Assembly: GCA_002726245.1 (NCBI GenBank)
Contig: PBSM01000096.1
Location: 1-64,000 of the forward strand
Length of the DNA stretch: 64,000 bases
DNA from: Planctomycetaceae bacterium
GTDB taxonomy: Bacteria > Planctomycetota > Planctomycetia > Pirellulales > Pirellulaceae
Reading direction: 5' to 3'
The position numbers and the translations under genes were made by a program. Below are positions 24,265 to 31,801 of the stretch, one piece after another (within the stretch, counting starts at the first letter, position 1; the number at the start of each line of letters is the position of its first letter). Under the pieces are notes generated by a model. It was not told where the DNA came from. It saw only the letters and a list, made by a program, of their open reading frames with translations, and made no database searches.

Positions 24265-25689
24265 ATGAAGAAGCTTTGCCTCACAGGCCTGTTGGTCTGT
24301 CTGTTTGTTTTATCTGTCTCGATTCTCACTGCTGCTGACTCGCCGCCGAACTTCGTGGTGTTTCTAGCCGATGACCTCGGTTGGGGTGACCTGGCGTGTT
24401 ATGGCCACCCGCAGATCAAGACACCGAACCTGGATGCCTTCGCCAAGCAAGGTGTTCGCTTCACGCAATGTTACTCCGCGTGTGGCGTCTGCTCGCCGTC
24501 GCGCTCGTCGATTCTGACCGGACGCACGCCGTATCGGAATGGTGTGTTTCGTTGGATTCCTGAGAAGCACGAAGTTCATCTGCGCACCAGCGAGATCACG
24601 ATCGCGGAACTGCTGAAGGACCGACGATATACAACATGTCACGTTGGAAAGTGGCATCTCAACGGGTACTTCAACTCGCCCGAGCACCCTCAGCCGAGCG
24701 ACCACGGGTTCGACCATTGGTTCGCGACACAGAACAACGCCGGGCCCACTCACAAGAACCCGACGAACTTCGTTCGCAACGGAAAGCCGGTCGGGCTACT
24801 GGAAGGATACTCTGCCCCTCTCGTTGCTGAGGAAGGAATCCACTGGTTACGTGAATTGCGGGATCCGAAGAAGCCCTTCTACCTCAACATCTGGACGCAC
24901 GAACCGCATCTTCCGATCGAATCCGATCCGCAGTTCATGGACTTGTATCCGGGAGACGACGTCGGGCTTCGGCAACATCATGGCAATGTGACTCAACTCG
25001 ATCACGCCTTCGGAAAGGTGATGGCCGCGCTGAAGGAACTGGATCTTGTTGACAACACGGTTGTATTCTTCACGTCCGACAACGGACCCGAAGGAAGCGG
25101 CAAGCCGGACCTGAAGAATCCTGGTTCGCAGCGCGATCGCACCCGCGGATCGACGGGTGGCCTGCGTGGACGCAAACGTGATGACTACGAGGGTGGTATT
25201 CGAGTCGCAGGCATGGTGCGTTGGCCAGGCCAAATCCAACCTGGAACGATCAGCAAGACGCCCGTCATCGGTAGCGACATCTTTGCCACGATGTGCGAAA
25301 TCGCTGATATTCCACTACCGCGGGATCGCGTCATCGACGGTGCCAGCATGTTGCCGGCATTCGACAATCAACCGATCAAGCGGACGAAGCCGCTGTACTG
25401 GCGAACCCACATCTCGTCACCTGATTCGCGAGTCGCCGTTCGCATCGGCGATTGGAAGATCGTTGCGGATCAGTCGTTGAAGAAGTTCCAATTGTTCAAC
25501 TTGAAGGACGACGAGCGCGAGACGACCGACCTCGCTCAGAAGCACGCTGACAAGTTCGCGGAGATGAAAAGGACATTGCTCGCGATGGATGCCGAAGTCC
25601 TCGCCGACGGCCCCGACTGGTGGAAGAAGGAGCAACCGGAAGATCGTCGCCGTCGCGCGAAGAAGAAACAAAAGAGAGCATCTAAGTGA
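24265..25689 (+). CDS. Secreted sulfatase (formylglycine type)
   Basis: A 474-residue arylsulfatase-family enzyme that removes sulfate esters, in planctomycetes typically from algal or host polysaccharides. A signal peptide is visible at residues 1-24 (LTGLLVCLFVLSVSILTAA). VVFLADDLGWGD (31-42) supplies the metal ligands, and CSPSR at 76-80 is the C-x-P-x-R motif whose Cys76 becomes formylglycine. HVGKWHLNG and FFTSDNGPEG are further family marks. The C-terminus is very Lys/Arg-rich. GTG/ATG codons upstream extend the frame to 24196, but the signal peptide and a GGAG site favour 24265. The next gene begins 47 bases later, so the two are likely an operon. Confidence 0.93.
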   Translation: MKKLCLTGLLVCLFVLSVSILTAADSPPNFVVFLADDLGWGDLACYGHPQIKTPNLDAFAKQGVRFTQCYSACGVCSPSRSSILTGRTPYRNGVFRWIPEKHEVHLRTSEITIAELLKDRRYTTCHVGKWHLNGYFNSPEHPQPSDHGFDHWFATQNNAGPTHKNPTNFVRNGKPVGLLEGYSAPLVAEEGIHWLRELRDPKKPFYLNIWTHEPHLPIESDPQFMDLYPGDDVGLRQHHGNVTQLDHAFGKVMAALKELDLVDNTVVFFTSDNGPEGSGKPDLKNPGSQRDRTRGSTGGLRGRKRDDYEGGIRVAGMVRWPGQIQPGTISKTPVIGSDIFATMCEIADIPLPRDRVIDGASMLPAFDNQPIKRTKPLYWRTHISSPDSRVAVRIGDWKIVADQSLKKFQLFNLKDDERETTDLAQKHADKFAEMKRTLLAMDAEVLADGPDWWKKEQPEDRRRRAKKKQKRASK

Positions 25690-25736
25690 CAAAGGAGCTT
25701 CGTAGCCAGTTCTGGCACCCGATCCGAAAGACCCTC

Positions 25737-28700
25737 ATGAAGCTCCGCCTTCTCTCGTCGATGCTCGCCGTTCTGGCAACGCATTCCCTTGCGGCAGGCG
25801 CCGATGACTCTATTGAACTCCTGTTTCTCGGAGATCGCGGGCATCACCAGCCAGCCGCCCGCGCCGAACAGTTGATTCCGGTGCTGGCGAAACGCGGCAT
25901 CAACATTACGTATACCGAGAGTGTGAACGATCTCAACTCGGAGACACTCGGCAAGTACGACGGCTTGCTCGTTTATGCCAATATCGATGAGATTTCGCCG
26001 TCGCAGGAGCAGGCGTTGCTTCAGTATGTTGAAGCGGGCAACGGCTTCATTCCCCTGCACTGTGCTTCGTTTTGCTTCCGCAACTCAGAGAAGTACGTCG
26101 CTCTCGTCGGAGCACAATTCCAGCGCCACGGTGGAGAGAGCTTTCGCACTCGCATCGTCGGGCGCAGTCATCCGATCATGCAAGGCTTTGACGGATTCGA
26201 AAGCTGGGACGAAACGTATGTCCACACGAAGCACAACGAAACCCATCGCACGGTGCTTTCCTACCGCGTCGATTCGCAAGGTCGTGAACCGTGGACATGG
26301 GTGCGAACGCACGGCAAGGGGCGCGTCTTCTACACAGCCTGGGGGCACGACGCTCGCACGTGGGGAGAACCCGGTTTTCAAAACCTCATCGAACGCGGAA
26401 TCCGCTGGGCGATCGGGGCCGACCCGGGCGATGTCCCTTCGTTCAAAGACCCGCATGCGTTCCCGATCCCCGCCATGACGCCAAAGCGAATGGATGTGCA
26501 GCCGTTTGAATACACAGAGGCCAAGGTCCCGTTCTATCCCCCAAGTGCAACGTGGGGGAAACTCGCCGAGCCGCTCACAAAGATGCAGAAGCCGTTGCCT
26601 GCCGAGGAATCGCTGAAGCACATGGTCGTGCCGGTGGGCTTCGAAGTGAAGCTGTTTGCTTCCGAACCGGATCTCCGCAAACCGATCTGTATGACGTGGG
26701 ATGAGCGAGGCCGATTGTGGTGCGGCGAGACGATTGACTATCCCAACGAGTTGAAGCCGGAAGGTGAAGGCCGTGACAGCATCAAGATCTGCCAAGACAC
26801 CGATGGCGATGGTCGAGCCGACAAGTTTACGGTCTTCGCCGACAAGTTGAGCATTCCAACAACCATTACGTTTCATCGCGGCGGAGTGATCGTTCAAGAC
26901 GGAACCAAGACTTGGTACATGAAAGACAACGACGGCGACGACGTGGCCGACGAGAAGCGAGTTCTGTTCGATGGCTGGAACATGCGCGACACGCATGGCG
27001 GGGTGAGCAATTTCCAGTACGGGCTCGATAACTGGATCTGGGCCATGCAAGGCTATAACAACTCGTCACCGACCGTGGACGGTGAGGCGGATCAGTCGTT
27101 CCGCATGGGGTTCTTCCGTTTCAAGCCGGATGGTTCCGAGCTCGAATTCATCCGCTCGACGAACAATAACACATGGGGCTTAGGGATCAGCGAAGAAGGT
27201 ATCGTCTTCGGTTCAACGGCGAATCGCAATCCTAGCGTCTACATGCCGATTCCTAATCGGTACTACGAAAAGGTGCGAGGTTGGTCGCCGAGTCAACTCG
27301 GCACGATCGCCGATACCCATCTCTTCGAGCCAATCACGGAGAACGTTCGGCAGGTCGATCATCACAACGGCTACACGGCCGGAGCCGGGCACGCACTCTA
27401 CACGGCGCGGACCTACCCGGAGGAGTATTGGAATCGCGTCGCGTTCGTTTGTGGGCCGACGGGGCATCTCGTCGGTTCCTTCGTGATAACTCGCGACGGG
27501 GCCAGCTTCAAGTCAACAAGCCCCTTCAACCTGCTCGCCAGCGATGACGAATGGTCCGCGCCGGTCATGGCGGAAGTCGGGCCGGACGGAAACGTGTGGG
27601 TGCTCGACTGGTACAACTGCATCGTGCAACACAATCCGACTCCGGCGGGTTACAAGACCGGCCAGGGCAATGCTTACAAGAGCGAGTTGCGCGACAAGCG
27701 ACATGCGCGGATCTATCGGATCGTGTACCGAGGTTCGGCAAGCGAGAAGAACGCAGCGCCGCGTCTCCGAGACGTTGCTGGCGAAGAACTTGTTGCGGCG
27801 TTGAAACATCCGAACATGTTCTGGCGGCGGCATGCACAACGTCTGCTGGTCGAGCGGGGTAAGCGAGATGTTGTGCCAGACCTGATCGAGCTTATCGACG
27901 ACCGCGGCTTTGATCAAATCGGCTTGAATCCCAGATCCATTCACGCGTTGTGGACGCTCAAGGGATTGGGCGCGTTGCACGGTGACGATGCGGAGGCGAA
28001 CAAAGCGGTCATTCGCGCGTTGCAGCATCCGTCACCCGGAGTGAGGCAAGTCGCAGTCGCGGTCTCGCCAAGAACAGAGAGTATGTTGAAGGCGCTGCTG
28101 GCGAGAAGGGTCGCGGTGCACGCAGATCCTCAAGTGCGGTTGGCAACGTTCCTGGCACTCTCTGAGTTCTGGCAAACGAATGATCTTGGCTTGCTGATTG
28201 ATCATGCGATCGCACGCCGGCAGAACCATACCGATTCGATTCTTCTCGATGCGTTGACAGTCGCGGCCGCAGCGCACGCGCCCAGCTACCTTGCCGCCGT
28301 GCTCGGCGAAGGTGCCTGGTCCGAGCGGCCCGTCGCACACGGGCTGCCGCAAGTTCGGGAACTTACTCGTCGCGTTGCCGAACATTTCGCTCGCGGCGCG
28401 GGCCAGGAGCAAATCAAGGAACTGCTCGCGTTGCGGCTCGATTCCCGCCTCAAAACGGAGCTCGATGACGTCAGCGCGGGACTAGCGGCTGGATGGCCGC
28501 AGGAGGAAGTTGTGGTTCTGGACCGGAAGACAGAGGCTGGTCTTGTTGCTTGGGTAAAGCAAGCGACACCGGCGGCGCAAGCCAACCTCGTGTCTCTCGG
28601 TTCGCGCTGGGGGAGCAAGAAGCTGGAAGCCTATGTTTTGGAGATTGCCGCCGCGTTCACGAAACAGGTCCAAGATGAAAGCCTCTCGGAAGCGGAAAGG

Positions 28701-30110
28701 CTTGCCGCGGCGAATCAACTGATCGAGTTTCGTGGCACCGATGGCAAGGCGGTCGTGACGTTGCTGGATGTGATTACGCCTCGGACAACGCCGGCGTTGT
28801 CCGAAGGTCTGTTCGCAGCGATTGGGAAAAGCGAATCGACCGAAGCAGGCATCGCCCTGGTGCAGCGGCTATCGTCGCTAACTCCGAAGGCTCGAGCATC
28901 GAGCTTGCGAGTGCTGTTGTCCCGGAAGGAATGGACGGCAGCGCTCGTTGACGCTCTCGCAGCCGGCAGGATCCCTCTCGGTGATCTCGCCCTGGAACAA
29001 AAGCAAGCGTTGACGGCCCATCCGAACCGCCAGATTGCTGCCAAAGCAAAGGCGATGCTTAGTCGCGGCGGCGGGTTGCCGAATGCTGATCGGCAGAAAG
29101 TGATTGATGAGATGCTGCCGCTAACGAAACTCACCGGCAACGTCGCGGCTGGCAAAGCCGTCTTCAAGAAGACGTGCGAGAAGTGCCACACGCACAGCGG
29201 TGAAGGCACGAAGATCGGCCCTGATTTGACGGGCATGGCGGTGCATCCCAAGCACGAGTTGCTAATTCATATCCTCGATCCGAGTCGATCGGTCGAAGGC
29301 AACTATCGCATCTACACGGTGGTGACCGAGAGCGGCAAGGTGCTAAGCGGATTGTTGGCCGCCGAATCGCGAACGGCTCTGGAGTTGATCGACGTAGAAG
29401 GCAAGAAGCACATCATCGTTCGAGACGAGATTGACGAGTTGGTCTCATCGAAGAAGTCGCTCATGCCGGACGGTGTCGAGAAGCAGCACACGCCACAGGA
29501 TCTGACCGACCTGCTCGAATTTCTGACGCAGCGCGAAAAGTTTATCCCGATTCCACTCGACAAATACGCGACAATCGCGAGCACGCAGGGGATGTTCTTT
29601 ACAAAGGAAGGCCCTGTCGAACGGCTCATCTTTCCGGATTGGTCGCCAAAGACATTTGAAGGCGTCCCGTTCTATCTGGTCGATCCGAAAGATGATCGCG
29701 CGGCAAACGTAATCATGCTGCATGGCCCTCGCGGCAACTTCCCACCTCGGATGCCCAACTCGGTCACACTCCCTTGCAACACTCCAGCCAAGGCAATCCA
29801 CTTCCTGAGCGGAGTCAGCGGTTGGGGCTTCCCGGCCATTCAAGAGAAATCCGTGTCGATGATCGTGCGATTGAAGTATGCGGACGGTGAAGCCGAAGAC
29901 CATCCGCTGCGAAATGCGGTTCACTTTGCGGACTACATCCGCCGCGTTGATGTTCCCGAATCGAAGCTGGCTTTCATGTTGCGAAGCCAACAAATTCGAT
30001 ATCTCGCGATCTATCCGAAGCGATCTCAGGCGATTGGCAGCATTGAGCTTGTGAAAGGACCGGATCAGTCGGCTCCGATCGTGATGGCCGTGACGATCGA
30101 GGGACATTAG
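25737..30110 (+). CDS. ThuA / PVC-type dehydrogenase / HEAT / c-type haem protein
   Basis: A 1457-residue exported protein. A signal peptide (MKLRLLSSMLAVLATHSLAAGA) precedes a ThuA-like domain (about 25-235: FLGDRGHHQPAARAEQL, FIPLHCASFCFRNS, YTAWGHDARTW). A seven-bladed propeller of the PVC membrane-bound dehydrogenase type (about 270-680; FEVKLFASEPDLRKP, DTDGDGRADKFTVF) is followed by HEAT-like helices (about 690-1120) and a haem-binding domain with CEKCH at 1147-1151. The last 150 residues form a beta-rich domain. Such proteins are typical of planctomycetes and Verrucomicrobia and are thought to oxidise sugars in the periplasm, passing electrons to the haem. Pairing with the sulfatase suggests polysaccharide use. 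Confidence 0.9.
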   Translation: MKLRLLSSMLAVLATHSLAAGADDSIELLFLGDRGHHQPAARAEQLIPVLAKRGINITYTESVNDLNSETLGKYDGLLVYANIDEISPSQEQALLQYVEAGNGFIPLHCASFCFRNSEKYVALVGAQFQRHGGESFRTRIVGRSHPIMQGFDGFESWDETYVHTKHNETHRTVLSYRVDSQGREPWTWVRTHGKGRVFYTAWGHDARTWGEPGFQNLIERGIRWAIGADPGDVPSFKDPHAFPIPAMTPKRMDVQPFEYTEAKVPFYPPSATWGKLAEPLTKMQKPLPAEESLKHMVVPVGFEVKLFASEPDLRKPICMTWDERGRLWCGETIDYPNELKPEGEGRDSIKICQDTDGDGRADKFTVFADKLSIPTTITFHRGGVIVQDGTKTWYMKDNDGDDVADEKRVLFDGWNMRDTHGGVSNFQYGLDNWIWAMQGYNNSSPTVDGEADQSFRMGFFRFKPDGSELEFIRSTNNNTWGLGISEEGIVFGSTANRNPSVYMPIPNRYYEKVRGWSPSQLGTIADTHLFEPITENVRQVDHHNGYTAGAGHALYTARTYPEEYWNRVAFVCGPTGHLVGSFVITRDGASFKSTSPFNLLASDDEWSAPVMAEVGPDGNVWVLDWYNCIVQHNPTPAGYKTGQGNAYKSELRDKRHARIYRIVYRGSASEKNAAPRLRDVAGEELVAALKHPNMFWRRHAQRLLVERGKRDVVPDLIELIDDRGFDQIGLNPRSIHALWTLKGLGALHGDDAEANKAVIRALQHPSPGVRQVAVAVSPRTESMLKALLARRVAVHADPQVRLATFLALSEFWQTNDLGLLIDHAIARRQNHTDSILLDALTVAAAAHAPSYLAAVLGEGAWSERPVAHGLPQVRELTRRVAEHFARGAGQEQIKELLALRLDSRLKTELDDVSAGLAAGWPQEEVVVLDRKTEAGLVAWVKQATPAAQANLVSLGSRWGSKKLEAYVLEIAAAFTKQVQDESLSEAERLAAANQLIEFRGTDGKAVVTLLDVITPRTTPALSEGLFAAIGKSESTEAGIALVQRLSSLTPKARASSLRVLLSRKEWTAALVDALAAGRIPLGDLALEQKQALTAHPNRQIAAKAKAMLSRGGGLPNADRQKVIDEMLPLTKLTGNVAAGKAVFKKTCEKCHTHSGEGTKIGPDLTGMAVHPKHELLIHILDPSRSVEGNYRIYTVVTESGKVLSGLLAAESRTALELIDVEGKKHIIVRDEIDELVSSKKSLMPDGVEKQHTPQDLTDLLEFLTQREKFIPIPLDKYATIASTQGMFFTKEGPVERLIFPDWSPKTFEGVPFYLVDPKDDRAANVIMLHGPRGNFPPRMPNSVTLPCNTPAKAIHFLSGVSGWGFPAIQEKSVSMIVRLKYADGEAEDHPLRNAVHFADYIRRVDVPESKLAFMLRSQQIRYLAIYPKRSQAIGSIELVKGPDQSAPIVMAVTIEGH

Positions 30111-31264: not shown

Positions 31265-31801
31265 ATGAACATCGCTGTCGGAATCGCTGCACCGGACGTG
31301 ACGCTTGCCGATCGTGAAGGCAATGAAGTCCGCCTCGCCTCGCTCTGGCAAGAGAAGCCGAGAGTCTTGCTCTTCGTGCGGCATTTTGGCTGACCGATGT
31401 GTCGCGAGCACGTGGTCGATGTGCGAGAGGAGTACGAACGATTTCTGGAGGCCGGCGGCGATGTTGCAGTCGTCACGATGGGCACCTCCGAACAGACCGC
31501 TGCCTTTCGTGAGAGGAATCAACTCCCGTTCATTTGCCTCGCCGATCCAAAGCGCGTGGCTTACGAAGCCTTCGGTGTGCCGAGAGGAACGGTCGCGCAA
31601 GTTGCCGGTCCTGCCGTGTGGGGTGGCGGATTGAAGGCGGTCCTACGTGCAGGGATCGGCAAACCCGTTGGCGATGTCTTGCAGCTACACGGCTCGTTCA
31701 TTATCGATCGCGATGGCATCGTACGCTTCTTTCATCTCCCGAAGAACTCCGTGGATCGCCCGACGAACGAAGAGCTAATCGCCCAGCTAGTGCTTCTGTA
31801 A
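31265..31801 (+). CDS. Selenocysteine-containing AhpC/TSA (Prx-like 2) protein
   Basis: ATG at 31265 begins a 178-residue thioredoxin-fold protein (IAAPDVTLADREGNEVRL, then LLFVRHFG). Codon 43 is TGA (31391-31393) and is followed by PMCREH. Relatives in the AhpC-TSA_2 / PRXL2 (SelU-like) family have HFGCPFCRE here, so TGA replaces the first Cys of CxxC and the motif is Sec43-x-x-Cys46. The frame then continues with full similarity (GDVAVVTMGTSEQTAAF, GSFIIDRDGIVRFFH) to TAA at 31799-31801. A hairpin with a GGUCG loop lies 14 bases after the TGA. Such proteins are thiol- or selenol-based peroxidases/reductases. A nonsense mutation is the alternative, but position and hairpin favour Sec. Confidence 0.8.
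31391..31424 (+). promoter_or_regulatory. TGA (Sec) codon and bacterial-type SECIS hairpin
   Basis: After the TGA at 31391-31393, GCACGT (31408-31413) pairs with ATGTGC (31419-31424), six pairs including one G-T, around the loop GGTCG (31414-31418). Bacterial SelB recognises a hairpin inside the coding sequence, shortly after UGA, with G-G-U in its loop. Here the loop begins 20 bases after the UGA. Confidence 0.65.

Follow-up and report, generated by a model that had tools for sequence, protein, structure and literature searches.

Bacterial selenoproteins with a peroxiredoxin-like (Prx-like) domain and a UxxC motif, in which U is selenocysteine (Sec), were described from the Sargasso Sea in 2005 (PMC1088965) and at scale in GOS data (PMC2398784). 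Recent reviews list Prx-like selenoproteins, though neither names the NCBIfam family NF040769 considered below (PMC9312934; PMC13188914). The Prx-like thiol:disulfide oxidoreductase selenoproteins (PF00578; UxxC or UxxU) commonly have a Prx-like domain, a thioredoxin-type UxxC motif, frequent Cys homologues, and a bacterial SECIS shortly downstream of the UGA (PMC1088965; PMC2398784; PMC9312934; PMC13188914). The distinction between thioredoxin-like UxxC and the TxxU of Sec-containing peroxiredoxins has already been drawn (PMC1088965). In the published model of the bacterial SECIS, the loop has 3–9 nt and the upper stem 4–16 bp, a G lies within the first two loop positions, the distance from the UGA is 16–37 nt, and the minimum free energy is at most -7.5 kcal/mol (PMC13188914). 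Selenoproteins of planctomycetes are also already known (PMC4807772).

Here we consider a gene in a 64,000-nucleotide stretch of a Planctomycetaceae genome (contig PBSM01000096.1, assembly GCA_002726245.1), referred to as the window. The plus-strand frame at 31265-31801 begins with ATG at 31265, ends with a stop codon at 31799-31801 and has TGA as codon 43 (31391-31393), which bears out the frame proposed in the first-pass annotation of this DNA. On the evidence below, its product is very probably a SelL-related / Prx-like (AhpC-TSA) selenoprotein. The features of the locus are as follows.

31265..31801, plus strand: probable selenoprotein gene for a SelL-related / Prx-like redox protein of 178 aa, codon 43 being Sec (profile matches and model)
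31391..31393, plus strand: TGA, predicted Sec43, first residue of the UxxC motif in RHFG-U-PMC (U or C in this column among relatives)
31400..31402, plus strand: TGT, Cys46, second residue of the UxxC motif and predicted selenylsulfide partner (no change at C46 among 6 or 33 aligned proteins)
31408..31424, plus strand: putative bacterial SECIS hairpin, 6 bp (GCACGU/AUGUGC) with the 5-nt loop GGUCG (covariation in 15 Sec genes, local fold, published model)
31397..31801, plus strand: ORF of conventional gene calling, starting at Met45 and lacking Sec43 (ORF list)

The ORF list holds only 31397-31801 on this frame. The first-pass annotation had expected standard annotation to truncate the gene and miss the active site; this is so for plain ORF calling, but not generally, as NCBI has a curated family model and RefSeq annotates many selenoproteins (PMC13188914). 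A frame that stays open through a TGA says little by itself, because the window contains 160 TGA codons preceded by 30 open codons and followed by 50. Among these candidates for TGA-interrupted genes, three that were inspected with Pfam gave no match, and only the one at 31265-31801 was taken up as convincing.

What carries weight is protein similarity across the codon. The 178-aa product matches NF040769, 'SelL-related redox protein', over residues 9-174 with 147.7 bits (cut-off 120; E = 2.5e-43), so homology across the TGA is not due to chance. It also scores 80.3 bits against Pfam AhpC-TSA (PF00578) and 42.5 bits against AhpC-TSA_2 (PF13911; gathering score 27). Most of the scanned Sec and Cys relatives pass the NF040769 cut-off, and one close Cys relative falls just below it at 112.4 bits. 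On these scores, the SelL-related / UxxC Prx-like selenoproteins are the closest named family for the predicted product. NF040769 is a subfamily label whose curated cut-off the gene passes, rather than a function shown by test. SelL of aquatic animals is likewise a Prx-like selenoprotein, and its redox motif also spans four residues; its two Sec residues, in UxxU, are reportedly linked as a diselenide (Shchedrina 2007). SelL has two Sec (PMC3473315), whereas the window gene has one, and its single TGA and UPMC motif rule out SelL in the strict sense. The product resembles SelU / PRXL2 / prostamide-prostaglandin F synthase in being above the AhpC-TSA_2 cut-off, and the family profile (11-168) aligns over nearly its full length with the prostamide/prostaglandin F synthase 9us9 (E = 1.2e-7). 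Sec forms of SelU occur in animals (PMC3473315); the gene described here, in contrast, is bacterial, carries an in-frame bacterial SECIS, and has nothing that indicates prostaglandin chemistry. A classical peroxiredoxin, with a TxxC or TxxU peroxidatic motif, is ruled out by the thioredoxin-type UxxC, although the fold is still Prx/Trx-like. Compared with the published Prx-like selenoproteins, the gene belongs to a planctomycete-type branch with RHFGUPxC and a SECIS position of its own.

Among homologues sampled from the family and the order, the codon-43 column holds either U or C between conserved flanks, as the first-pass annotation had asked to be checked. Its placement of the TGA at the first Cys of HFGCPFC also agrees with the alignment, in which RHFG-U-PMC lines up with RHFGCPFC, RHLGCPFC and similar motifs. 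Two alignments, of 6 and of 33 proteins, show no variation at R39, H40, G42 and C46, and nothing but C or U at position 43. Fifteen genes, the window gene included, share the TGA and are spread over genera g1, g42, g354 and g3 and one further genome of the order. Besides the window gene, they comprise a gene in G041 (RHFGUPLC, 52% identical), those of three g354 genomes (RHFGUPMC, with 77-78% identity downstream of the TGA), nine from genus g3 (RH[LI]GUVFC) and an order-level one in G085 (RHLGUPFC). Cys genes are found in genera g18, g43, g11 and g19. Similarity had been claimed to continue on both sides of the TGA, and it does: identity to the three g354 relatives is 65-73% before the TGA and 77-78% after it, and substitutions are in excess at third codon positions on both sides. 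In the comparison with L162, the counts by codon position are 12/9/24 over 37 codons before the TGA and 24/9/73 over 132 codons after. The third-position excess on both sides means that the upstream part has neither decayed nor been falsely joined.

Scanning the genome contigs with the single protein as query gave no matches, and scanning them with a 6-row alignment gave 52 loci; the latter pattern back-translates Cys, so that members with TGA cannot be found by it. Viral contigs held no relatives, and plasmids held distant ones only, with less than 35% identity among the matches listed. Further redox genes with a TGA came to light in the relatives and in the window genome. Another Prx/ResA-like family in the relatives (L057, L058, L059 and L060) has a conserved W-U-P-[YFI]-C motif with TGA, and its members are probably selenoproteins too. 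In the window genome, the redox gene L062 (G000:C315, about 1655-1975) has a TGA in ASW-U-PFC and an extra in-frame TAG shortly after, and is a damaged gene or a sequence error.

As the SECIS, the first-pass annotation had pointed to six base pairs with a GGUCG loop at 31408-31424. This hairpin, GCACGU-GGUCG-AUGUGC, is present and fits the published bacterial model (PMC13188914), with a 5-nt loop, six pairs, and a loop that begins 20 nt after the TGA. The energy limit of -7.5 kcal/mol is reached by the local fold of 31403-31434 (-8.4 kcal/mol), but not by the bare 17-nt hairpin (-6.3 kcal/mol). Folding the region, also suggested at first pass, gave a divided answer: over 31385-31440 the best hairpin is a different one that pairs the UGA (z = -0.24), while the SECIS hairpin is the best fold solely when the folded stretch starts downstream of the UGA (31403-31434). 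The window hairpin alone is not significant under synonymous codon shuffling (p = 0.19), and a scan of the window at Rfam gathering scores returned tRNA only, with no SECIS flagged.

The decisive evidence is comparison across the clade. All 15 of its Sec genes form the six pairs at the identical place with a GGU loop, so that 100% of the 90 pair cells are paired. Twelve cells are doubly changed, compared with 4.5 in shuffles, none of 500 of which reached twelve. Covariation scores 0.384, and sliding the partner strand yields 0.089 at most. The full paired GGU hairpin is absent from the 18 Cys homologues compared. The Cys gene of G018 (L011), a selB-positive genome, keeps five of the six pairs without the GGU loop, possibly as the remnant of a SECIS after a change from Sec to Cys; others keep fewer pairs. 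A strong hairpin in the Cys homologue L012 (p = 0.002) was rejected as a SECIS, as its 12-nt loop lies outside the model. Over the broader family, the combined p-value from synonymous shuffling is 3e-10 in 23 Sec genes and 0.12 in 16 Cys genes, figures that overstate independence because the sequences are related. The case for this putative SECIS is a comparative one, and is not built on the window hairpin alone or on single-sequence folding.

The genome from which the window comes is a 7.6-Mb draft in 356 contigs (89% complete, 1.7% contamination), and its sel genes sit on other contigs. Gene content and the named relatives L077 and L078 would place the host in or near Pirellulaceae. All four components named for checking at first pass, selA, selB, selD and tRNA-Sec, are present. 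The tRNA-Sec scores 66 bits against Rfam RF01852 (gathering score 47), with the anticodon tca according to ARAGORN. SelB scores 373.5 bits (cut-off 242), SelA 563 bits (cut-off 268) and SelD 352 bits (cut-off 125), and in the selB and selD searches the controls, E. coli and M. jannaschii, behaved as expected. The selD gene (L047:1501-2427, minus strand, G000:C321) has an in-frame TGA of its own in SCAGUAGK, the usual Sec/Cys site of SelD, which makes this SelD a selenoprotein as well.

Presence of selB also tracks the residue across the close clade. Among 30 genomes in which the residue could be read, 11 of the 14 with a Sec gene have selB and 15 of the 16 with a Cys gene lack it (Fisher p = 9e-5, not corrected for kinship, the relatives not being independent). 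One of the 11, G653, is counted on a truncated selB match below the cut-off at a contig end. By genus, four Sec genera have selB and three Cys genera do not, with one Cys genome (G018) that has it. In three g3 genomes with the TGA gene (G002, G650 and G651), the selB search gave no match. G002 (L014, L073, L159) is 99% complete and has the Sec-type gene, with neither selA nor selB above the cut-off; selB is present elsewhere in its genus. Both G002 and G651 have a Sec-type selD, and G002 also has tRNA-Sec, so that a gap around selA-selB is the likely explanation for these two. G650 is only 69% complete.

Three other readings of the TGA have to be weighed against Sec insertion. It might be a true stop, in which case the functional protein would begin at ATG 31397 and the 42 codons ahead of the TGA would be leader or remnant sequence, and a plain ORF does exist at 31397-31801. 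That ATG, however, is Met45 of the motif itself, a position at which most of the tabulated Sec relatives have TTC, CCG, TTT or other codons, and the protein made from it would be without its nucleophile. The upstream part, moreover, shows a coding pattern in its conservation and supplies the opening strands of the predicted fold, which leaves this reading extremely improbable. Least probable of all is that the TGA is a nonsense mutation in a pseudogene or a sequencing error for TGC or TGT. The draft state of the assembly, in 356 contigs, and the in-frame TAG of L062 lend this some plausibility, but independent genomes of several genera share both the TGA at this codon and the matching SECIS hairpin. 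This conservation refutes the reading and also answers the assembly-error objection foreseen at first pass; apart from the TGA, moreover, the frame is unbroken and shows coding constraint.

A third reading accepts read-through, and supposes that the UGA is mostly decoded with Cys or another residue, for example under selenium scarcity. Cys homologues are stable and widespread, so Cys would be tolerated at this position, yet such decoding would have no need of dedicated Sec machinery or of a SECIS that is conserved and covaries; we consider it very unlikely. Sec insertion thus stays the preferred reading, and the first-pass proposal of a probable Prx-like selenoprotein with Sec in a UxxC motif is upheld by the sel genes, the relatives and the covarying hairpin.

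The window genome also encodes a second selenoprotein of the family (L049; G000:C37:26613-27122, minus strand), with the motif RHLG-U-LPC. It belongs to a sister clade with ULPC-type motifs, in which an AGUU loop lies 25 nt after the UGA on stems of 4-8 bp. Doubly changed cells in this clade's hairpin number 41, where shuffles give 14.2; covariation scores 0.598, and slid versions reach no more than 0.152. Since GGU and AGUU hairpins both occur in the window genome, two genes of the family there carry different SECIS arrangements. A tree of 114 homologues requires eight Sec/Cys changes, at least four of them forced by well-supported branches; its bootstrap is not fully settled and its deep branches lack resolution. 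It may be, though we put this forward tentatively and somewhat doubtfully, that Sec and Cys were exchanged several times, largely with the presence or loss of SelB, and that the SECIS arose or moved separately in the two clades (GGU at 20-21 nt as opposed to AGUU at 25 nt).

An AlphaFold2 model built from 33 sequences, with Cys modelled at position 43, has a confidently predicted Prx/thioredoxin fold (mean pLDDT 95.9) in which residue 43 immediately precedes helix 44-55, at the start of the active-site helix. The best Foldseek matches are Bcp/AhpE-type peroxiredoxins and ResA thiol-disulfide oxidoreductases, and the family profile finds the same groups by sequence. From sequence and model, we infer that the protein may serve in oxidative defence as an oxidoreductase or peroxidase that depends on thiols. 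Gene neighbours contain no redox operon that would point to a partner or substrate: upstream lies a large ThuA / DUF7133 / cytochrome c protein (25686-30110), and the others are a protein without a Pfam match, a large SEC-C-like / TPR protein, a RibD-type protein and a weakly LptD_N-like protein. PADLOC gave no match.

In the mechanism that we propose, the ribosome meets the UGA at codon 43 with the GGU-loop hairpin 20 nt downstream, in a genome that supplies tRNA-Sec(UCA), SelA, SelD and SelB. As in established biology, SelB-GTP carrying Sec-tRNA would bind the hairpin and deliver Sec at the UGA. The product is predicted to fold as a thioredoxin/peroxiredoxin-like protein, with Sec43 at the N-terminus of the helix that bears the active site and Cys46 three positions further along. 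Given the thioredoxin-like UxxC motif and the matches to Prx and ResA, Sec43 would be the nucleophile that attacks a peroxide or an oxidised thiol; a Sec43-Cys46 selenylsulfide would then form, to be reopened by a cellular thiol reductant, for example thioredoxin.

The gene adds a member to a selenoprotein family known in bacteria for two decades, and is not SelL proper. It provides a well-supported selenoprotein, together with its SECIS, for a lineage with a sparsely described selenoproteome, and it shows how plain gene calling drops a catalytic residue. Close Sec and Cys versions, among which SelB and the hairpin have been gained or lost correspondingly, form a natural set in which the contribution of Sec, and the origin and decay of the SECIS, may be studied.
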